The position numbers and the translations under genes are program-made. Below are positions 993 to 13,227 of a stretch of 64,000 nt of DNA, piece by piece; the first letter of the stretch is position 1, and the number at the start of each line of letters is the position of its first letter. This DNA is from Sphingomonas flavescens (GTDB lineage: Bacteria; Pseudomonadota; Alphaproteobacteria; Sphingomonadales; Sphingomonadaceae), in contig NZ_CP133016.1 of the NCBI RefSeq assembly GCF_030866745.1, positions 930,001-994,000 on the forward strand, read 5' to 3'. The notes beneath the pieces are model-generated. The model worked only from the letters and a program-made list of their open reading frames with translations, was not told the origin of the DNA and ran no database searches.

Positions 993-2112
993 TCAGGCGA
1001 ACTTCAGCAATTTGATGCTTTCCGAGTTCACGACCTGGCCGCCGATTCGCTTCGTTGCGTAAAAGTGGACGTACGGTTTGTGGGTGTAGGGATCGCGCAG
1101 GATCGTCGTCGCATTGCGCTCGGCGATCACATAGCCCGCCTTGAAGTTGCCGAACGCGATCGACAGGCTGCCCGCCGCAATGTCCGGCATGTCCTCCGCC
1201 TCGATCAGCGGATAGCCCAGCAGCGTCGCCGGCTGGCCCGCCGCCAGGCTCGGCTGGAACATGAAGGCGCCGTCCGCAGTCTTGAATTTGCGCACCGCGG
1301 CCGCCGTCGCCGAGTTCATCACGAACACCGCGCCCTGACGGTACGGCGAGCGCAACGTCTGGACGAGGTCGATCAGCTTGTCCGCCGGATTGCTCGCCGG
1401 GAACGCGCCCGCCGCCCCGGTCCCGAGAACCTGCAGCGTGCCCATCGCCCGCGCCCCGTCTGAAGTCGTCGCGTTCGGCGACGTCAGGAAGCCGAGCGGC
1501 TGGTTGACGCCCGTCCCGCTGACGAACGCCTTGCCCTCGGGCGCGCGCGAACTCGGTGGCGATCTCATTTGCGAGCCATTTCTCGACATCGAACGCGACG
1601 TCGTCGAGCATCTGCTGCGACGCCGCCGGATTGGCGTACAGTTCGCCGCCCGCCGGCACGATCTCGCTGAAAGTCGGTGTCCCCGTCTCCGGCCGCGCCG
1701 CCTCGAATCCCACCCAGCCCGACGGCGTGCCGCCCGTGGTGATCAGCTTGCGGTAACCCGCGCTGCCGACTTTCACGACATTGGCGATGCTGCGGATCGG
1801 CGAAATCGCCACCAGCGTCTCGTCGATGACGCGGTCGATCTCTTCCGGCACCGCATAGCCGCCGATGGCATCGCTCGAGCCGCCGATCGCTTTCGTCTCC
1901 ATTCCGGACTCGATCCCGCGCCGCACATATTGGTCGACGAAGTTCACCGCTTCCGCCGACTTCACGCCGTCCAGCATCGGCCGCTGCGCCTGGATCGCGC
2001 CGCTCGCGATCTTCGCCTTCAGCGTCTCCAGCTCCACTTTCAGCGCGGCGACGCCATCATCCTCGAACTGCTCGAACGACTGCTCGAGCGCGTCGGCCTT
2101 AAATTCCAGCAT
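993..2112 (-). pseudogene. Major capsid protein (HK97 fold, GTA/phage type), frameshifted
   Basis: The capsid protein builds the icosahedral head. The N-terminal half (from ATG at 2112, about 190 residues, ending ...KWLANEIATEFAR) and the C-terminal half (EGKAFVSGTGVNQPLGFLT to KLLKFA, stop at 993) lie in different frames. They join around 1535-1550 in the minus-strand run GCGCGCGCCCGAG. Removing one base restores ...EFARAEGKAFVSG, which matches the usual HK97-type capsid sequence. The intact product would be about 372 residues, normal for GTA-type capsids, with a short N-terminal helical (delta-like) segment at residues 1-40. It follows the prohead protease in standard order. Either the head module is decaying or a base was wrongly inserted in a GC run; both halves are otherwise well conserved, with no further stops. 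Confidence 0.85.
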
Positions 2113-2176
2113 TCACTCTTCTCCCGTGTGAAATCCGCAAACAAAAAGGGCCGCGAAAACCGCGACCTTCACCACC

Positions 2177-2210
2177 TTCGTCATCCCCGCGAAGCGGAGA
2201 CCCTGCTCCT
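2177..2210. repeat. Isolated copy of the 34-bp REP-like element
   Basis: A diverged single copy (GTCATCCCCGCGAAGCGGAG) lies in the gap between the prohead protease stop and the capsid start. It has the same orientation as the tandem copies at 5897-6066 and the copy at 8949. Confidence 0.7.
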
Positions 2211-2592
2211 ACTTTACGACTGCATGCACCCGCGCCCGCGGCTGCATCGGGTTCGCGACCAGGCTCACCTCGACCAGATCCAGCTCGACCAACTCGCGAT
2301 GCGGCCCGGCGCTCTTCGCCTCACGCACGCGATAGCCGAAGCTCAACCCGTCCAGCCGCCCGCTTTCGACCAACCGCGACGCCCGCGAGTCCGCGACCCG
2401 CGCAATCACCCGCAGCCCCCGCCGGTCCTCGCTCAAATGCTCGATCCGCCCGACCACCGCGCCAGCCTTGTGCTGCCACAGCAACGGCACCTCGCCCGCA
2501 CGTTGCAGCGCCCGCGCAAACGCGCCTTTGCGAATGATGTCACCGCCCTTGTCCGGCCGGTCGAACACTGCCGCGTAGCCCGCAAACCTCAC
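2209..2592 (-). CDS. HK97-family prohead protease (127 aa)
   Basis: This is the maturation protease that cleaves the capsid delta domain inside the prohead. The chosen start is GTG at 2592, because it overlaps the upstream stop as GTGA and the conserved protein begins there (VRFAGYAAVFDRPDKGGD). A longer ATG-started reading frame only covers the upstream gene. Likely catalytic residues are H41 (LLWQHKAGAVVGR) and S84 (GRLDGLSFGYR), the His and Ser positions of the U35 family, with the acidic partner probably in the LVELDLVEVSLV strand. The length suits GTA-type proteases. It sits between the DUF6127-like gene and the capsid gene, so its role in head assembly is well supported by order. Confidence 0.88.
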   Translation of the reverse strand: MRFAGYAAVFDRPDKGGDIIRKGAFARALQRAGEVPLLWQHKAGAVVGRIEHLSEDRRGLRVIARVADSRASRLVESGRLDGLSFGYRVREAKSAGPHRELVELDLVEVSLVANPMQPRARVHAVVK

Positions 2593-2915
2593 TGCGCCAC
2601 CAGGTCGGTCAGCCGCAGCTTCACCGCGATTCCGATCAGCACCGCCGCCCCCGCGACCCGCACGACCCACGTCACCACCGCCCGCCACGCACTCCGCTTC
2701 GCGTCCCGCCAAGCGCTCAGCAGCTCGCGCAGCTCATCCATGTCGCGCCGCGCGCTCGCATCATCCAAACCTAACGACGCCAATGCCCGCCGCGCCCCCG
2801 CCTGACTCGACTCCTCGACCAGCGCGCGCAGCGTCACCAGATCCACCCCGCGCCCCTCGGCCTGCGCCATCAAGCTCGCCAGCAACCCTTCCGCGCTCAA
2901 GACCCGCTCAGTCAT
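2589..2915 (-). CDS. DUF6127-like small membrane-anchored protein in the head module (108 aa)
   Basis: The start is ATG at 2915, giving MTERVLSAEGLLASLMAQAEG. The preceding AGGACAGG serves as ribosome binding site and comes from a dispersed repeat inside the end of the portal gene. The N-terminal 75 residues are helical and charged (TLRALVEESSQAGARRALASLGL, DMDELRELLSAWRDAKR); one hydrophobic helix follows at about residues 80-100. From memory it resembles DUF6127 proteins found in sphingomonad GTA-like clusters at this same place between portal and protease, where RcGTA has a small extra gene. The function is unknown. Its ends overlap both neighbours (portal by 8 nt, protease by 4 nt), so translation is likely coupled. 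Confidence 0.75.
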   Translation of the reverse strand: MTERVLSAEGLLASLMAQAEGRGVDLVTLRALVEESSQAGARRALASLGLDDASARRDMDELRELLSAWRDAKRSAWRAVVTWVVRVAGAAVLIGIAVKLRLTDLVAQ

Positions 2916-4035
2916 TTGCCTGTCCTGAGCTTGTCGAAGGGGAAAACCCCAGCATGTCGCGCTTCTCCGCATCGCTGAGGAAGTCCGCCTTCCCCACCGC
3001 ATCCCACAACCGCGCCCGGTCCTCCGCAAGCTCGCTCAGCTGATCCGTATCCACCGCCAGCCGCACCGGCCCCAGCCAGTCGCTCAGCATCCGCCCCAAT
3101 TCTTGGAGTACCCGCTCCGCCATCGGCAGGATCGTCTGCCGGTACAGCGCCCGCCCCGCTTCCCGCGCATTGGCGTAAGTCGCGTCGCCCGGCAGCCCGA
3201 CCAGCACCGGCGGCACCCCGAACGCCAGCGCGATATCCCGCGCCGCCCCCTCCTTCAGCGCGACGAAATCCATGTCCGCCGGCGTCAGGCTCATCGCCTG
3301 CCACTTCAGCCCCCCTTCCAGCAACATTGGGCGCCCGGCGTTCGCGCTCCCGGAAAACTCGCTCGTCAGTTCGTCCTTCAGCCGCGCGAACTGCTCCGCC
3401 GACAAGGCCGCACCGTCCGCCGGCTCATAACTCAGCGCCCCGCTCGGCCGCGCTGCATTGTCGAGCAGCGCCTTATTCCATCGCGCCGCCTTATTGTGCA
3501 CCGTCGCCGCCGCGATCGCCGCCTCGACGCAGCCCATCCCGTAATGGTCGTCGCGCGGATGCAGCGCTTTCACGTGCGCGACCTGCGCCCGCTCCAGCCC
3601 GTCGCGCCGCTCGATCCGCACCGCCTTGCCGCCAGCCCGATAAAGGTACGCGACCGGCCACCCGCGCTCGTCGCTGATCACCTGCACCCGCTCGGGCCGC
3701 AACGACGCCAGCTCCGCCGGCGCGTCCCTCCCGTCGGCGATCAGCTGCACATAGGCATTGCCGTGCAGCAGCAGGTTCGCGGCCACTGTCTCCAGCAGCC
3801 CGCCCTCCTTGACCAAGGCCACCGCCCGCGCATCGCCGTCGATGGCCAGCCCGCCGAGCATCCCCGCGACCAGCCGCACCGCGCGCTGGCCGACCGGATT
3901 GCGCCGGTACACCTGCTCGAACTGCTCCGCGTAAGAACGAGCGAACCCCACCTCCGTCGGCTCACTGGCCAACCACGCGGGCACAAACGGCCTCGCGTCT
4001 GGCGCCGCAGACTTGCGGCCAAACCACCACCCCAT
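2908..4035 (-). CDS. Phage/GTA portal protein, HK97 family (375 aa)
   Basis: The portal forms the dodecameric ring at one head vertex through which DNA is packaged. The sequence runs from MGWWFGRKSA through the conserved portal core (RRNPVGQRAVRLVAGMLGG, LLLHGNAYVQLI, HPRDDHYGMGCVEAA, FGVPPVLVGLPGDATYANAREA) typical of the HK97 gp3 family and close to GTA portals in length. An AGGAGTGA ribosome site precedes the ATG; 29 nt separate it from terL. The last residues (STSSGQAND) are encoded by a dispersed repeat and are probably not part of the ancestral protein. It overlaps the downstream small gene by 8 nt. Confidence 0.92.
   Translation of the reverse strand: MGWWFGRKSAAPDARPFVPAWLASEPTEVGFARSYAEQFEQVYRRNPVGQRAVRLVAGMLGGLAIDGDARAVALVKEGGLLETVAANLLLHGNAYVQLIADGRDAPAELASLRPERVQVISDERGWPVAYLYRAGGKAVRIERRDGLERAQVAHVKALHPRDDHYGMGCVEAAIAAATVHNKAARWNKALLDNAARPSGALSYEPADGAALSAEQFARLKDELTSEFSGSANAGRPMLLEGGLKWQAMSLTPADMDFVALKEGAARDIALAFGVPPVLVGLPGDATYANAREAGRALYRQTILPMAERVLQELGRMLSDWLGPVRLAVDTDQLSELAEDRARLWDAVGKADFLSDAEKRDMLGFSPSTSSGQAND
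2920..2941. repeat. Dispersed sphingomonad-type repeat inside the portal 3' end
   Basis: The segment contains TGTCCTGAGCTTGTCGAAGG, a palindrome-containing repeat known from many sphingomonad and other alphaproteobacterial chromosomes. It is the only copy I see in this window. It encodes the extra C-terminal residues of the portal and supplies the AGGACAGG ribosome site of the next gene. Confidence 0.65.
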
Positions 4036-4064
4036 CGCTCGTCACTCCTGAACCTATTTGGATG

Positions 4065-5414
4065 CTAAAGCCGCCGCACCCGCGGCAGCCCGCCGCGCGT
4101 CACGCTCAGCGCTGTCATCGCCCACACCATTGCATCGGCCCGGTCGGGCGACCGCCCGGGCCCCTCGTACCCGCCGCCGGCAATCATTCCGCACAGCTCG
4201 CCCTCTAGCTCCGGAAACTCCCCGGCGAACGCCGCCTTCCCGCTCTCGAACTTCAGCGCCACCGGCTCCGCCCTGGCGCTCTTGCCCTTCGACGCATGGA
4301 CCAGCCGCACGTTGAGCCCCAGGTCCGCCGCCTGCAGCACGCTCAGCACCATCGCCCCGCCGTTGTTGGCCTCGGCCACCACCTGCGCCGTGTCCCAGCG
4401 CGCCGCCGCGGCCGCCACGCGGTTCGACCAGCCTTCAGGCGACAGACCGCGCACGCTGGCATCCTCCATTACGAACAGCCGCCCGCCGCGCGCGCCCGCC
4501 ACCACGATCCCGCAGGCATCGGACGTTTCGCCAGCCCCCGCTGGCGGATCGACGCCAACCACAATTCGATCGAACGTCGCCGGCCGTTCCACCCGCGACC
4601 GCTGGCAAATCTCCCGCGTCCACAACGCCCCCTGCACATCCTTCAGCAGCACCCCGTCGAGCTCCTGCGCGCCCACCCGCGTCCCGCCGTAGGTCGACGT
4701 CATGATCTCCACGAACCGCTCGTCCAGGTTGATGTTGTCGCTCGTCCGCCCCGTCGTCGTCACCGTATGTTTATCGTCGCGGATCCGCTCGAGCAGCGGC
4801 CCTGGCCGCGGCGTCGTGGTGATGAGGGCGCGCGCCCGATGCCCGCCGCGCAGGCCCATCTGCAAGTTCATCCACGCCTCCTCCGCCTGGCGCCATTTCG
4901 CCAGCTCGTCGGCCCAGGCAAAGTGATGCTCAGGTCCGCGCAATCCGTCCGCATTGTCGCCCGAGAACAGATGCGCCTCGCTCCCGTTCGGCCAGCGCAG
5001 CCGCCCGAGGCTCGACTCCCACCGCAGGTTCACGCGGTGCCGCCGCGCCACGCTCAACAACCCGCTCACGCCCTCGACCATGATGCTCCGCGCTTCGGCG
5101 ATCGTCGCTCCGACCAACGCGATCCGGCTGTTCGGCCGGTTCTTCCCCAACCTGTAAACCCATTCCGCCCCGGCGCGCGTCTTCCCGAACCCGCGCCCGG
5201 CCATCATCAGCCAGGTGCGCCAGCCCTCCCCGTCGGGCGGCAGCTGGTTCTTGTGCGCCCAATGCTCGAACTCCGCGTCCAGGCACGCCAGCCGCTCAAT
5301 CGTCATCCCCTTGATGATCTTGTGCTGCTGCTCCGGCGTCGCATCGGACAGCATCGCCATTTCCTCGCGCAGCACTCCGTAATTGGGCTCTTTCCGCTTC
5401 CTGCTCTTGCTCAT
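4065..5414 (-). CDS. Terminase large subunit, GTA type (449 aa)
   Basis: TerL is the packaging motor that pumps and cuts DNA. The N-terminal ATPase shows Walker A GRGFGKT (residues 73-79) and a Walker B-like HHFAWADEL (163-171). The C-terminal RNase H-like nuclease begins at about residue 284 with VVGVDPPAG (D289), and acidic DRADAMVWAM lies near the end. The N-terminal ACLDAEFEHWAHKNQLPP segment is the form I associate with gene-transfer-agent terminases. It is the first large gene of the head module. Its start overlaps the TerS-like gene by 119 nt; a later start at M19 is possible and would shorten the overlap. Confidence 0.92.
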   Translation of the reverse strand: MSKSRKRKEPNYGVLREEMAMLSDATPEQQHKIIKGMTIERLACLDAEFEHWAHKNQLPPDGEGWRTWLMMAGRGFGKTRAGAEWVYRLGKNRPNSRIALVGATIAEARSIMVEGVSGLLSVARRHRVNLRWESSLGRLRWPNGSEAHLFSGDNADGLRGPEHHFAWADELAKWRQAEEAWMNLQMGLRGGHRARALITTTPRPGPLLERIRDDKHTVTTTGRTSDNINLDERFVEIMTSTYGGTRVGAQELDGVLLKDVQGALWTREICQRSRVERPATFDRIVVGVDPPAGAGETSDACGIVVAGARGGRLFVMEDASVRGLSPEGWSNRVAAAAARWDTAQVVAEANNGGAMVLSVLQAADLGLNVRLVHASKGKSARAEPVALKFESGKAAFAGEFPELEGELCGMIAGGGYEGPGRSPDRADAMVWAMTALSVTRGGLPRVRRL

Positions 5415-5883
5415 TGCGCTTCTTCAACCGCTGCAGCTTGCGGACCAGCCGCTCGCGAATTTCGTCGACGTCTTCGGGGGGCAGATCGGCATTAGCCTCG
5501 GCCGCCGTCGGCTGGTGCATCTGCAACAGCTTCAGGCCCAGCGCGTCCGAATATTCGCGCATCCGGCTTTCGCTGCCGTCCTTGTGCCGGATGACCCGCT
5601 CGACCCCGCTGAACGCCCGCTCCAGCAGGATCAGCTCGAGCCGCGAATAGGCAACGCCGATCGCCTCGATCCACGAAGCGCGAAAGCCGGCGTCCAGCTT
5701 CCGCTGGCGGTAGGCCACCGTCATCGGCACCCCGCTCCGCCGGCACGCCTCGGACACGTTGCAAGTCTCCGCCAGCACGCCCAGAAAGGCCCTGGCCTTC
5801 GCCGCCGACCAGTCCCGCACCGCGCGCTTGCGCAGCTTCCTTTCCCTGCCGCCCACCAGCGTCAGCTCCCTCTTCCGCCCCAC
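5296..5883 (-). CDS. Terminase small subunit-like HTH protein (195 aa)
   Basis: The likely role is DNA recognition for packaging. Start choice: GTG at 5883, which has GAGGAGGG immediately upstream; a farther ATG would begin inside the tandem repeat array. Residues about 30-70 form a homeodomain-like helix-turn-helix (AFLGVLAETCNVSEACRRSGVPMTVAYRQRKLDAGF), followed by a helical region (WIEAIGVAYSRLELILLERAF) seen in TerS and RcGTA gene-1-like proteins. The C-terminal 40 residues overlap the start of terL and have a low-complexity look (EQEQEAERAQLRSAARGNGD). That tail may be read-through after a lost stop near the terL ATG. Family placement is by fold pattern and position. Confidence 0.7.
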   Translation of the reverse strand: MGRKRELTLVGGRERKLRKRAVRDWSAAKARAFLGVLAETCNVSEACRRSGVPMTVAYRQRKLDAGFRASWIEAIGVAYSRLELILLERAFSGVERVIRHKDGSESRMREYSDALGLKLLQMHQPTAAEANADLPPEDVDEIRERLVRKLQRLKKRNEQEQEAERAQLRSAARGNGDAVRCDAGAAAQDHQGDDD

Positions 5884-5896
5884 GGCGCCCTCCTCG

Positions 5897-6066
5897 TTTG
5901 TATCCCGGCGAAGGCACGCACCCGGCCTCCTCGTCATCCCCGCGAAAGCGGGGACCCAGCCCGCTCGTCATCCCTGCGAAGGCGAGGATCCACCCCTCTC
6001 GTCATCCTCGCGAAAGCGGCGACCCACCCCTCTCGTCATCCCCGCGAAAGCGGGGACCCAGCCCTA
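5897..6066. repeat. Five tandem 34-bp REP-like units
   Basis: Units begin at 5897 (degenerate), 5931, 5965, 5999 and 6033, exactly 34 bp apart. Each centres on CCCCGCGAAAGCGGGG or a variant, an inverted repeat able to form a GAAA-capped hairpin, preceded by TCGTCAT and followed by a CCCA tract. The units are contiguous with no spacers. The array lies just upstream of the TerS-like gene and so upstream of the whole head module. Confidence 0.9.
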
Positions 6067-8993: not shown

Positions 8994-10112
8994 TCAAAAA
9001 CGCCCGCAATCGCTGGGCGCCGGCCGACCGGCAAAGCGGTCCGCGACCCAGCTGAGCGTCTGCCCCGCACTATCCTTGCCGCTCGTGACATGGCCGCCGC
9101 TGCCGTTGAGCGTGATCCACGCCAGCCGTTGACGGCTGCGGCACAGCGCCTGCGCATAGGTCCGCGTTACTTGCGGCGCGACCAGTTGGTCGCCGCTGTT
9201 CTGCGCAATCAGCAACGGCACGCCGAAGCCGCCCGTCTGCGGACTATTGGCGACCGCATAGCCCGCCCATGGCGGGGTCGACGCCAGGTCGACGTCGCGC
9301 AGGTTGCGCTGCAACGTCGCGATGCCCAGCAAAGTCATCACGTTCGGCTTGCTGTCGACCGAAATGCATTTGTTCGCGAGGTTGTTGATGATGCCGCGGG
9401 ACAGCGGCCGGACGAAGGTCAACGGAATCCCGTAATGCTGCGACCAGCTCGCGGCGATCAGCGCCGTGAAGAAGGTCCGCGCGCCGGCATTCGGCGCCTG
9501 CCGCAAATTGGCCGGCAGGTTGGTTGGCGGCGCGGCGGCGGCCGCGCCGACCAGCTGCAGTTCGGGCGCGTATGTCGGCTGAACCTGCGCCGTCCACAAC
9601 GCCGCGTGCCCGCCCTGGCTTTCGCCCCAAACGGCGAACCGCCGTCCGGCACTCGCGCCATTGACCGATTGCGCCGCCCGCACCGCGTCCAGCACCGCGC
9701 GGCCCGTTGCGATCCCGACCAGGAACGGGTGCATCCCGCCGCCCCCGCCCAGGCCGATGTAATCGGGCGCGACGACCGTCATGCCCTGTTGCAGCGCGCC
9801 AAGGCCTGGGGTCTGGACCCAGAAGTTCGGGCTGGCCGAGGGAGAACAGGCTTGCTGGATGCCCCATGTCCCGTGCGTCCACGCCAGCACGGGCCGCGGC
9901 CGCGCGGACGGCGTCGCCGGCGCGACCACCATGCCGGTCGCCTGAAAAGGCTGGTTATTCTCGTCGGTGGTCCAGTAGCGAATGCGCCAGGCGTTGCTGC
10001 CCGCCACCTGGCTCGCCACCGGGTCCGCCGCGATCAGCTGGCCCGCGCGCTGCGCCTGCGCGCTGCTCCCGAACAGAACGATACCGAAAAGTGCCCCGAT
10101 GATGCGTCGCAT
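8994..10112 (-). CDS. Secreted lipase/esterase, secretory lipase family (372 aa)
   Basis: This alpha/beta-hydrolase probably cleaves lipids or esters outside the inner membrane. The start is ATG at 10112 (GGGGCAAAGG upstream), which gives a clean signal peptide (MRRIIGALFGIVLFGSSAQA); longer frames add an implausible N-terminus. The nucleophile motif GESQG places Ser at residue 165. The surrounding FAVWGESQGGHAALWTAQ and the oxyanion-side LAWTHGTWG match the LIP (Pfam secretory lipase) pattern. Late acidic and His residues (QNSGDQLVAPQ, GSGGHVTSG) are likely triad members. Monocistronic. Confidence 0.82.
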   Translation of the reverse strand: MRRIIGALFGIVLFGSSAQAQRAGQLIAADPVASQVAGSNAWRIRYWTTDENNQPFQATGMVVAPATPSARPRPVLAWTHGTWGIQQACSPSASPNFWVQTPGLGALQQGMTVVAPDYIGLGGGGGMHPFLVGIATGRAVLDAVRAAQSVNGASAGRRFAVWGESQGGHAALWTAQVQPTYAPELQLVGAAAAAPPTNLPANLRQAPNAGARTFFTALIAASWSQHYGIPLTFVRPLSRGIINNLANKCISVDSKPNVMTLLGIATLQRNLRDVDLASTPPWAGYAVANSPQTGGFGVPLLIAQNSGDQLVAPQVTRTYAQALCRSRQRLAWITLNGSGGHVTSGKDSAGQTLSWVADRFAGRPAPSDCGRF

Positions 10113-10275
10113 GCCTTTGCCCCTGCTGCCGATGCACAGGGCATACCGCAGACAACAGCCGTAAGCGACTGAACTTTCGGGCATGTTTCTTGATCGAGTT
10201 CGCTGCCGGGCAGACCCAGCGGCAGAGTGCAGCGCCGATGGCGTGCCGGGTGAGGCCTTCGTCTCGCTAGGCCCA

Positions 10276-10310
10276 AACGAAATGGGGGCCGGCATTGCTG
10301 CCAGCCCCCA
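10276..10310 (-). terminator. Terminator-like hairpin, minus strand
   Basis: TGGGGGCTGGCA pairs with TGCCGGCCCCCA around a 4-nt loop on the minus strand, followed by TTTCGTTT. On the plus strand one pair becomes a C-A mismatch, while on the minus strand it is a G-U wobble. The element therefore appears to act on minus-strand transcripts coming from the structured region upstream. Confidence 0.6.
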
Positions 10311-10720
10311 ATGCGCCGAGCGAAGGATCTGCCGGTATTCGATCTACCTTGGTCCCGCCCTCACGAATGAGTTTGTAACCCCGCTTCTCGATCCTGGCTC
10401 ACCAGCTCAGGCGTCGCATTCCATCTTGCAGCTCCCTCTAGGAGGAGCCCGTCCGATCTGCCGTCCAGCTCGCCCGAAGGCTCCCTGGTCGTCTGATCTA
10501 ACCAGCCTGCTGTGACCGAAGTCCCAGCGAAAACCGCCCGATGTTCCGCGGCCCTTCTTGGGAAAATCTCTCTCGCGTCCCGCTTTGCTCACCTCGGTTC
10601 CGAAGAACCGCGGGAGCCGCGTCGCGCGACAGGAAGATTTTCTCTTCCGGCGCCTCCTACCAGCTGGCCTCAATCGAAATCCGAAGAATTCGATCACTGC
10701 CTGCCGGCGGAGATCGGATC
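10311..10720 (-). ncRNA. Candidate structured RNA of unknown class
   Basis: This stretch has no convincing protein gene but is dense in minus-strand hairpins. Four have the extra-stable cUUCGg tetraloop: 10694-10673 (9-bp stem, one mismatch), 10610-10595 (CGGTTC stem), 10523-10514 (GAC stem) and 10481-10472 (GCC stem, with an outer CCAG/CTGG helix). Others are GGAAGA-GAAAA-TCTTCC at 10648-10632 and CTGG-TGAG-CCAG at 10405-10394. On the plus strand these loops would read CGAA, so the strand is clear. A terminator-like stem closes the region at 10310-10276. I checked for the RNase P, tmRNA, SRP and 6S signatures that I know and saw none. The promoter and the exact 5' end are not identified. The flanks 10113-10275 and 10721-10845 show nothing else. 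Confidence 0.45.
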
Positions 10721-10845
10721 TTAGGCCCTGCCGCTGTCGCCTACCCTTGCGGGTTCTTGTCAGAGGCCGGAACCGCCGTCCCGATCACCTGATGACAATG
10801 CACCTCGCCTCCGAGTCGGGGAAGCGGAATCTTCAACGCGCGGCC

Positions 10846-10863
10846 TGTGGATAATGTGGATAT
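10846..10863. promoter_or_regulatory. Two tandem DnaA boxes upstream of uvrD
   Basis: TGTGGATAA (10846-10854, an exact DnaA box on the opposite strand) is followed with no gap by TGTGGATAT (10855-10863, one mismatch). They lie 76 bp before the helicase start and could link its expression, or that of a minus-strand transcript, to DnaA. Two boxes alone do not make an origin. Confidence 0.5.
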
Positions 10864-10938
10864 TGGTAACAACCGTTCGCAGCGCTTCGCCGATACTGAC
10901 GAGTTGCCGTTTCGTTCCCTTATCCCTACTTCGGCCAA

Positions 10939-13227
10939 GTGCCTGAATCCTCTGCATTGAATACCGAGCCTGCCTATTTGCAGGGGCTCAACGAACCGCA
11001 GCGCGACGCCGTCCTCACCACCGAGGGACCGGTACTTGTGCTCGCCGGCGCAGGAACTGGCAAAACCTCAGCACTGACCGCCCGCCTCGCCCATCTGATC
11101 GCGACTCGGAAGGCGTGGCCAAGCCAGATTCTCGCCGTCACCTTCACCAACAAGGCCGCGCGCGAGATGAAGGAGCGGATCAGCCGGATCAGCGGCGGCG
11201 CAATCGAGGGCATGCCCTGGCTAGGCACCTTTCACTCGGTTGCCGCGCGCATGCTCCGCAGCCATGCCGAGCTCGTCGGCCTGCAGTCGAACTTCACGAT
11301 CCTCGACACCGACGATCAGCTCCGCGTCCTCAAGCAGCTCATCCAGGCCGCGAACATCGATGAAAAGCGCTGGCCGGCCCGTCAGCTCGCTGGCCTGATC
11401 GACCGATGGAAGAACCGCGGCTGGACTCCTGCGCAGGTCGATGCCGGCGAGTCCGAAGGCTTCGCCGCCGGCCGCGGCGCCGAGCTCTACGGCCAGTATC
11501 AGGATCGCCTGCGCGCGTTGAACGCCTGCGACTTCGGCGACCTTCTGCTGCACATGCTCGTCATCTTCCGCACGCAGCCCGACGTGCTGGAACGCTACCG
11601 CGAGCGCTTTCTCTACATCCTCGTCGACGAATATCAGGATACCAACCAGGGCCAGTACGAATGGCTCAGGCTCCTCGCCGAACCGCGCCGCAACCTGTGC
11701 TGCGTCGGTGACGACGACCAGTCCATTTATTCCTGGCGCGGCGCCGAAGTCGCCAACATCCTTCGCTTCGAAAAGGATTTCGCGGGCGCCAAGGTCATCC
11801 GGCTCGAGCAAAACTACCGCTCGACCAGCCACATCCTCGGCGCCGCCGACGGCTTGATCGCCAATAATGCCGGCCGTCTCGGAAAGACCTTATGGACCGA
11901 CGCCGGGGACGGCGAGAAGGTGCGCGTCATCGGCGTATGGGACGGCCCCGAAGAAGCGCGCCGCGTTGGCGAGGAAGCGGAATCGCACATGCGCTCGGGC
12001 GGATCGCTCGATGACATCGCCATCCTCGTCCGCGCGCAGTTTCAGACCCGCGAATTTGAAGAGCGCTTCATCGCGATCGGCCTGTCCTATCAGATCATCG
12101 GCGGTTTCCGCTTCTACGAGCGGGCCGAGATCCGCGACGCCATCGCTTACCTGCGGCTCATCGCGCAGCCAGCCGACGACCTCGCCTTCGAACGCATCGT
12201 CAACCAGCCTAAGCGGGGCCTCGGCGACAAGGCGGTCGCGACGATCCACCGCCACGCCCGCGCCGCCCAGCAGCCGCTGCTCCTCGCCTCCGCTGCACTG
12301 CTGGATAGCGATGAACTGACGCCACAAGCCCGCCGGTCGCTCGGCAACTTCGTCGCCGACATCGCACGCTGGCGAAAGATGGCCGGCGAGCTTCCGCATG
12401 CGGAGCTGGCCCGCATCCTGCTCGACGAGAGCGGCTATACCGCGATGCTCCAGGCCGACCGCTCGGCGGAAAGCAGCGGTCGCCTCGAAAACCTCGCCGA
12501 GCTCACGCGCGCGATGGAAGAATATGAATCGCTCGGCGCGTTCCTGGAACACGTCAGCCTCGTCATGGAAAATGATGAATCCCGCCAGGGCGACCGCGTC
12601 ACCATCATGACGATCCACGCCGCCAAGGGCCTGGAGTTCGACATCGCCTACCTCGCCGGCTGGGAAGAAGGCGTGTTCCCGTCGCAGCGCTCGCTCGATG
12701 AAGGGGGCCTTGCCAGCCTCGAGGAGGAGCGCCGCCTGGCTTACGTCGCGATCACCCGCGCCCGCCGCCGCGCGACGATTTTCCACGCCGCCAATCGTCG
12801 CATCTACGGTCAATGGACAAGCAGCATCCCCTCCCGCTTCATCGCCGAATTGCCAAAAGTGCATATTGATGAAGAGACCACGATGACCGGCGGCGAGAGC
12901 TTGTGGCGGGCTCAATGGTCGGAACGCGCCGACCCCTTCGCCCATCTCGGCCCGGCCCAATCGATGCGCGCTTCTACCCGAGGACCCGGTTGGCAACGCG
13001 CCTCGCGAGGCAATTTCAACGCCGAGCCGCAGCGGGTGATTGAAGCGCGGGCATCCGCCGTATCGCTCGGTAACCAGGGCCGTACGGATTTGACGCTCGG
13101 CCAGCGCGTCTTTCACGGGAAATTCGGCTACGGGATCATCGCGGCAATCGAAGGCAACAAGCTCGAAATCGACTTCGAGCATGCCGGTCGCAAGAAGGTG
13201 CTCGACAGCTTCGTCACCGCCGCCTGA
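10939..13227 (+). CDS. uvrD: UvrD/PcrA-type superfamily 1 DNA helicase (762 aa)
   Basis: This 3'-5' helicase acts in nucleotide-excision and mismatch repair and in clearing recombination intermediates. The start is GTG at 10939. Motifs in order: Q-motif LNEPQRDAV (17-25), Walker A AGAGTGKT (36-43), TFTNKAAREM (motif Ia), LGTFHS, Walker B ILVDEYQDTN, motif III DDDQSIYSWRGA, QNYRS, and motifs V/VI TIHAAKGLEFDIAYLAGWEEGVFP and LAYVAITRARRR. The C-terminal basic tail ending GYGIIAAIEGNKLEIDFEHAGRKKVLDSFV is a Tudor-like RNA-polymerase-binding type region. Length is slightly above E. coli UvrD (720). Monocistronic, with DnaA boxes in its leader. Confidence 0.9.
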   Translation: MPESSALNTEPAYLQGLNEPQRDAVLTTEGPVLVLAGAGTGKTSALTARLAHLIATRKAWPSQILAVTFTNKAAREMKERISRISGGAIEGMPWLGTFHSVAARMLRSHAELVGLQSNFTILDTDDQLRVLKQLIQAANIDEKRWPARQLAGLIDRWKNRGWTPAQVDAGESEGFAAGRGAELYGQYQDRLRALNACDFGDLLLHMLVIFRTQPDVLERYRERFLYILVDEYQDTNQGQYEWLRLLAEPRRNLCCVGDDDQSIYSWRGAEVANILRFEKDFAGAKVIRLEQNYRSTSHILGAADGLIANNAGRLGKTLWTDAGDGEKVRVIGVWDGPEEARRVGEEAESHMRSGGSLDDIAILVRAQFQTREFEERFIAIGLSYQIIGGFRFYERAEIRDAIAYLRLIAQPADDLAFERIVNQPKRGLGDKAVATIHRHARAAQQPLLLASAALLDSDELTPQARRSLGNFVADIARWRKMAGELPHAELARILLDESGYTAMLQADRSAESSGRLENLAELTRAMEEYESLGAFLEHVSLVMENDESRQGDRVTIMTIHAAKGLEFDIAYLAGWEEGVFPSQRSLDEGGLASLEEERRLAYVAITRARRRATIFHAANRRIYGQWTSSIPSRFIAELPKVHIDEETTMTGGESLWRAQWSERADPFAHLGPAQSMRASTRGPGWQRASRGNFNAEPQRVIEARASAVSLGNQGRTDLTLGQRVFHGKFGYGIIAAIEGNKLEIDFEHAGRKKVLDSFVTAA

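Follow-up and report, generated by a model that had tools for sequence, protein, structure and literature searches.

The gap between a hydrolase-like open reading frame (ORF) on the minus strand and a UvrD-type helicase ORF on the plus strand almost certainly encodes a structured RNA, whose predicted fold, a junction of four helices, is supported across five genera and which is kept in most genomes of the genus. The RNA family is very probably new by sequence and fold, a claim of novelty that excludes its mechanism. Our best explanation, to which as a whole we give about even chances, is a stand-alone structured noncoding RNA (ncRNA) of the Sphingomonadaceae that would be produced in time with the cell cycle and would act in trans via a bound protein. 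Only a few large structured RNAs are known that are conserved across many bacterial species, and such RNAs often have a central role. If its promoter works as we read it, the cell-cycle circuit formed by DnaA and GcrA/CcrM would have this RNA as an output; a covariance model is now available for its annotation.

An earlier note on this DNA had proposed a candidate structured RNA of no recognized type for the minus strand at 10276..10720 of the window, that is, of the whole 64-kb stretch analyzed here. The RNA gene itself is borne out by compensatory changes and by the missing match in Rfam, its extent is not: The gene appears to be longer, with a start near 10788 and an end near 10280. The 5′ block GTGATCGGG, located at 10788, is invariant in 28/28 relatives, which had been excised with this block as anchor at up to two mismatches, and a 3′ terminator around GGCAGCAATGCCGG, located at 10280, is common to them. 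These relatives, 366–537 nt long, constitute alignment A1 and correspond to 28 of the 30 genus loci found by BLASTN (without L025 and L027). We place the transcript start near 10788 based on a −10-like CAT element 6 nt upstream, which would make GTGATCGG the 5′ end of the transcript. The gene and its neighbors, the latter with names suggested by their sequences, are as follows:

10280..10788, minus strand: predicted structured ncRNA gene of about 509 nt, delimited by the start block and the terminator of alignment A1
10280..10311, minus strand: intrinsic-terminator-like hairpin with 12 pairs, 99.1% of cells paired and double changes in two pairs
8994..10113, minus strand: hydrolase-like ORF downstream of the RNA
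10939..13227, plus strand: UvrD-type helicase ORF, a divergent neighbor outside the RNA

A uvrD-like match is found in 28/30 of the genus BLASTN loci and is divergent from the RNA in 27/30. Counted without L025, the distance from uvrD to the RNA start is 136–247 nt in 23 loci and 609–1089 nt in three (L009, L014, L024); in L010 uvrD is on the same strand as the RNA, at L018 it is absent, and the contig of L022 is too short to tell. Not one of 15 loci in other genera that carry either the RNA or a similar promoter (L111, L115, L117, L118, L126, L127, L130–L132, L135–L137, L139, L140, L160; some are the same place fetched twice) has a uvrD match, and the hydrolase adjoins the RNA in only 4/30 genus loci, the window's own included. 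For this reason, the RNA and its promoter seem to travel together as one unit. A leader of uvrD was ruled out by the opposite strand and by the other-genus loci without a uvrD match. As the hydrolase-like ORF comes next on the same strand in the window, one might also think of an extended untranslated region belonging to the next mRNA or of a gene for a small protein; this is hardly credible, since the conserved terminator separates the RNA from a hydrolase that is rarely its neighbor, and since the longest sense ORFs vary from 37 to 173 aa across 29 relatives. These unconserved lengths speak against a protein gene, as the initial judgment that coding is unlikely had anticipated.

In kind, the RNA resembles OLE, GOLLD, and ROOL, which are large, stand-alone, and highly structured bacterial ncRNAs whose function is hard to guess. 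In the 64-kb window and in six other-genus loci, all Rfam 15 families stay below their gathering scores. At lax E-values only matches below the gathering scores appear; at E ≤ 5 the segment gives a single one, far below its gathering score. The window contains no tRNA and no tmRNA. RNase P RNA of class A and tmRNA are of the same size class (a few hundred nt), structured, and transcribed from a gene of their own; neither matches here, in line with what had been read from the segment at the outset, and the genome's only matches at E ≤ 0.001 fall elsewhere, at 642170–642547 for the former (RF00010, 274 bits) and at 2552676–2553023 for the alphaproteobacterial tmRNA (RF01849, 214.7 bits). In the parts consulted, the literature searched, which includes PMC6429828, PMC8632094, PMC11109978, and PMC2864571 and whose scope excludes a 2017 survey of 224 candidates, supplements, and most subscription journals, contains no report of this RNA; among these four texts, only PMC8632094 has a "sphingo" mention, a Sphingomonas used for another motif. 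In a Sphingopyxis genome paper, ncRNAs were predicted with Rfam models, according to the part consulted (PMC4741004).

The four CTTCGG motifs that had first drawn attention to the segment are in place; the minus strand carries all of them, the plus strand none. When the 64 kb were scanned in 445-nt segments with a step of 25, at least four such motifs occurred in 0/2543 segments of the plus strand and in 9/2543 of the minus strand, all nine of which overlap this region (10256–10900). Three of the four proposed cUUCGg hairpins hold, closing at least 3 bp without mismatch, whereas the one at 10694–10673 has an inner mismatch, as judged by eye. Compared with dinucleotide shuffles, the folding of the minus strand is better (z −3.83, 0/100 as good), but so is that of the plus strand (z −3.05, 1/100 as good).

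Comparison of the relatives supports a core of four helices, P1 to P4, which would meet at one junction; the segments that join them are near-invariant, and the outer arms, many of them capped by cUUCGg, vary. The order is P1 (GCGCC/GGCGC), the joining segment GGAAG, P2, the joining segment CCAAGAA, P3 (GGGCCGC/GCGACGCCU), and P4 (GAGC/GCUC), which lies directly between P3 and P1. The predicted elements are located as follows:

10781..10786, minus strand: 5′ hairpin strand GATCGG, pairing with CCGATC at 10712–10717; paired in 28/28 and invariant
10649..10653, minus strand: P1 5′ strand GCGCC, pairing with GGCGC at 10313–10317
10636..10642, minus strand: P2 5′ strand, pairing with 10562–10568; strongest covariation
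10555..10561, minus strand: A-rich joining segment between P2 and P3 (CAAGAA region)
10548..10554, minus strand: P3 5′ strand GGGCCGC, pairing with GCGACGCCU at 10409–10417, AC bulged
10540..10543, minus strand: upper P3 arm CATC, pairing with GATG at 10422–10425
10405..10408, minus strand: P4 5′ strand GAGC, pairing with GCUC at 10318–10321

P1 is 100% paired in 28 genus sequences and in 16 sequences across genera, with one pair varying to G–U. In P2, pair 27–97 across genera is occupied by UA in seven, CG in four, GC in three, and AU in two sequences, and pair 190–276 of the genus alignment by UA in 15, AU in eight, CG in four, and GC in one. It is this pairing of 10642–10636 with 10568–10562 that is conserved, and not the local stem 10648–10632 that the earlier note had drawn. 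The motif CCA(A/G)GAAGGGCC between P2 and P3 occurs in all 16 sequences of alignment A3 and likewise of A4, from five genera. The six lowest pairs of P3 are invariant and 100% paired, while its upper arm is changed on both sides in 5/5 pairs, with 85.7% of cells paired; in L137, the P3 helix seems to be continued by other pairs (by eye). P4 carries a G–C to U–G double change in L028 and L030 and is 9 bp long in L160 (by eye).

Taken together, the 51-pair structure of A1 has 97.0% of its cells paired and 16 pairs changed on both sides; it contains 96 double-changed cells compared to 29.3 (sd 4.5) in shuffles, of which 0/500 reach 96. Sliding the partners by 1–3 columns lowers the pairing to 30–45%, a comparison that favors our structures, as they were derived from the same alignments in which the pairs were counted. 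Alignment A3 comprises 16 of 46 cores, some chosen for short arms and, in addition, the four from outside the genus, with row L022 cut at a wrong 3′ end; the RNAalifold structure on A3 yields 67 double-changed cells versus 23.7. In A4, which is A3 without L022 and L077 and with L027 and L160 added (16 sequences, five genera), 95.7% of cells are paired, with 34 double-changed cells versus 9.7 (sd 3.1) and 0/500 shuffles reaching this number. Compensatory changes in homologs, by which the RNA was to be judged, are thus present beyond the controls in A1, A3, and A4. Covariation support comes chiefly from P2 (four double-changed pairs), from the upper arm of P3, and from one outer hairpin; P1, the lower part of P3, and the 5′ hairpin are consistent with the fold but vary too little for covariation to bear on most of their pairs. 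Moreover, certain pairs exist as G–U on the minus strand only: The single non-Watson–Crick pair of the terminator, correctly recognized as U·G from the window alone, is U·G in 28/28 relatives, and a pair of P3 is G–U in 28/28. On the genus-only alignment, RNAalifold prefers other partners for some P1 bases, which makes alternative folds possible; one of these partners, CCGGC, is missing from the corresponding position in other genera, as judged by eye.

A four-way junction with near-invariant A-rich joining segments in five genera would also suit a ribozyme or a ligand-binding RNA with the invariant junction as its active site. We consider this improbable, as no downstream expression platform is apparent: The RNA ends at its own terminator, and the hydrolase is found next to it in just the four loci mentioned above. 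We know of no ligand or cleavage product for this RNA.

By eye, two further features of the junction were seen. The GGCGCC at P1 (10649–10654 with 10313–10321) is palindromic and could pair between two RNA molecules, and the bases at the border of P1 and P4 can pair either way, so that a switch or a dimer is conceivable.

BLASTN with 491 bases against 100 genomes returned matches in 55, all in the window's genus (55/61 genus genomes, the window's own included), and in 0/39 genomes outside it; a few of these matches (in G002, G013, G026, and G058) are short fragments with E near 1e-3. Among the six genus genomes without a match, G006 was recovered by model R1 and four are 67–83% complete; G012 (97% complete, 290 contigs) remains without a match. 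A pattern scan of GTDB contigs named Sphingomonas segetis, alba, caseinilyticus, cremea, rhizophila, edaphi, hankyongi, sediminicola, and daechungensis, among others, as carriers: 27/36 returned contigs have a strong R1 match (109–150 bits), the other nine (Devosia, Nocardiopsis, Paenibacillus, and others) have none.

Model R1, which includes the terminator, matched 26/27 genus genomes and, at E ≤ 0.01, 228/396 genomes of the order, 26 of them in the genus. Outside the genus, G315 reached 69.6 bits and the others, among the matches listed, at most 45.8; we take these weak matches to be mostly terminator-like stems. Four weak R1 loci were inspected, and L115, L117, and L118 have a like promoter upstream, L116 does not. 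The core model R2 matched 24/27 genus genomes (G002, G006, and G058 fall below its threshold) and 29/396 genomes of the order, namely these 24, G315 (genus g71), G284 (genus g66), and three marginal ones in g28/g40. Both G315 and G284 hold all four core motifs, and G284, which is not part of the R2 training set, scores 49.7 bits. The promoter pattern led to two additional genera, g74 (L135) and g96 (L137), which score 79.3 bits each with R2; the training set of this model includes L135, L137, and G315. The marginal matches in g28/g40 have neither the P2–P3 joining motif nor the P3/P4 motif, and in a draw from the class R2 gave four marginal matches in 384 other genomes, none with either motif; with these motifs missing, both the three and the four were taken as chance. 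The predicted core is accordingly seen in five genera of one family, the window's genus and g66, g71, g74, and g96, in searches whose strict filters could have lost weak relatives beyond the Sphingomonadaceae. The R2 match is split in two in L025 (G004), G047, G056, and G017, where one arm may therefore contain long inserts.

The region upstream of the predicted start contains the following elements:

10844..10863, minus strand: tandem DnaA-box-like repeat ATATCCACA-TTATCCACA-GG, about 60 nt upstream of the predicted start
10827..10831, minus strand: second GANTC site (GATTC) just upstream of the putative −35 region, read from the sequence in part of the relatives
10813..10817, minus strand: GANTC site (GACTC) between the putative −35 and −10 regions
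10795..10800, minus strand: −10-like CATTGT, 6 nt before the predicted start; putative role

Among 29 of the 30 BLASTN loci (without L025), TTATCCACA is present upstream exactly in 25/29 and with at most one mismatch in 29/29; among random stretches of 110 nt from the window, 0.19% have it in the latter form and 0.06% have it together with CGANTC. CGANTC lies within 60 nt upstream in 28/29 relatives, with the site broken in L008 and GAATC in L019 and L022, and a CAT stands 5–18 nt before the start block in 23/29. In other genera, too, the RNA is preceded by a similar promoter, at loci without a uvrD match, and several other-genus loci have the longer form TTATCCCCG-ATATCC(C/T)CG-TTATCCACA; the list of other-genus promoters comprises only places that fit our own search rule and is not a count.

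According to the parts of the sources consulted, GcrA acts with σ70 at promoters having adjacent methylated GANTC in Caulobacter and Brevundimonas (PMC7987155; PMC8116508), and YGAKTCK was proposed as an extended form for Caulobacter (PMC7987155). The putative promoter described here is similar in that it has GANTC between presumed −35 and −10 regions in a genome that encodes GcrA (80.1 bits) and a CcrM-type RAMA domain (64.8 bits), but its CGACTCG does not fit the YGAKTCK form as given there. Judged from these sites, control of the promoter by GcrA/CcrM or DnaA is reasonably probable. Either factor may be dispensable or misnamed, because the site is broken in L008, because YGAKTCK does not fit, and because genus g45 keeps the TTATCCCCG repeats without an exact DnaA box.

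The motif TT[AT]TCCACA is scarce, occurring once in the 64-kb window and three times in 464 kb sampled, as one would like to see for a DNA-level element, a DnaA-titrating or replication-control site at which the RNA structure is incidental. Such an explanation is very improbable, since compensatory changes and strand-specific G–U pairs need RNA; in addition, the element lies between two switches of GC skew and at neither of them, with the skew being sampled and weak. In 20 stretches and the window, this weak skew changes its sign near 1.6 Mb and near 0.2–0.3 Mb, whereas the RNA is located at 0.94 Mb, which speaks weakly against an oriC element.

Within the window, the GC skew is strongly negative at 2001–6000 (−0.276 and −0.235 in 2-kb steps) and ranges from −0.125 to +0.040 in all remaining steps. 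As an origin marker, PF03618 (PPDK regulatory protein) matched in 0/18 genus genomes. In other genera, start regions that presumably belong to such a gene, judging by their look, follow exact TTATCCACA boxes.

Returning to the cell-cycle-timed RNA, we propose the following mechanism: A σ70-type promoter would be controlled by DnaA through the tandem box-like repeat, which lies about 60 nt before the start, and GcrA together with CcrM methylation would act at the GANTC between −35 and −10. Through this putative control, the passage of the replication fork would determine the period in which the RNA is made. The RNA would then most likely sequester a protein or serve as a scaffold for it, and less likely act by antisense pairing, since its invariant bases are located in the junction and in the paired P1 and P3 instead of one open loop or seed. 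Such a placement appears to suit an RNA that binds a protein or is catalytic better than one that pairs with an mRNA. We therefore lean toward a protein over an mRNA as partner, a preference based entirely on where the conservation lies. As the relatives have kept both the fold and a promoter with cell-cycle marks, the job of the RNA is probably tied to the growth cycle.

The promoter logic would also suit a trans-acting antisense regulator that pairs with cell-cycle mRNAs, in the manner of CcnA or EcpR1, which the consulted parts of their sources describe as alphaproteobacterial ncRNAs acting on ctrA, gcrA, or dnaA. We regard this alternative as possible, yet doubtful. No single open invariant loop is apparent, and the duplex energies of the whole RNA and of five conserved blocks against the start regions of gcrA and ccrM, the only targets considered, are ordinary: With accessibility ignored, a fraction of 0.27 to 0.98 of 506 crudely called start regions from sampled stretches is at least as strong. 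EcpR1 of Sinorhizobium meliloti (Rhizobiales), a conserved trans-acting small RNA linked to dnaA and gcrA, is mainly 101 nt long and has two stem-loops with one conserved open loop, as stated in the part consulted (PMC4414408), whereas the RNA described here is without unusual complementarity to gcrA. CcnA of Caulobacter crescentus lies in the replication origin, is presumably activated by CtrA, and was proposed to pair via a CCCC loop, again according to the part consulted (PMC8959179). Like CcnA, our candidate is an alphaproteobacterial ncRNA gene with its own putative promoter and DnaA-like boxes nearby; unlike CcnA, it has a DnaA-like/GANTC promoter, a predicted four-way-junction core, and probably, given the weak sampled skew, a location away from the origin. 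The consulted text of the CcnA paper has no "sphingomon" mention, and no report of cell-cycle RNAs in Sphingomonadaceae was found in the literature searched.

A similar promoter and terminator also surround bodies that R2 misses, about 260–400 nt long, in genera g45, g46, g50, and g52; loci with a like promoter and terminator and a different body are L130–L132, L117, L118, L136, L126, L127, and L115. The unrecognized bodies in the four genera may be diverged homologs or different RNAs under one control. Tentatively, there could be a family-wide class of replication-timed Sphingomonadaceae RNAs in which the promoter (TTATCC repeats and CGCTT-N3/4-CGACTCG) and the terminator (GCAGTGGGGGC...GCCCCCATT or similar) are kept and the body is replaced or diverged beyond recognition between genera; the four-way-junction body would be one type, a ribonucleoprotein component feeding the replication state into physiology. 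The pattern TTYCGCTTNNNNCGACTCG matched in 15/249 genomes and by itself proves nothing, because its reversed control gave 11 matches in the same genomes; 11/15 matches are also accompanied by the upstream repeat and the downstream terminator, and four are not (L128, L129, L133, L134). The folding z-scores of 11 other-genus RNA bodies are mixed, from −7.2 to −0.1, and in 3/11 bodies (L115, L126, L135) the opposite strand folds as well or better.
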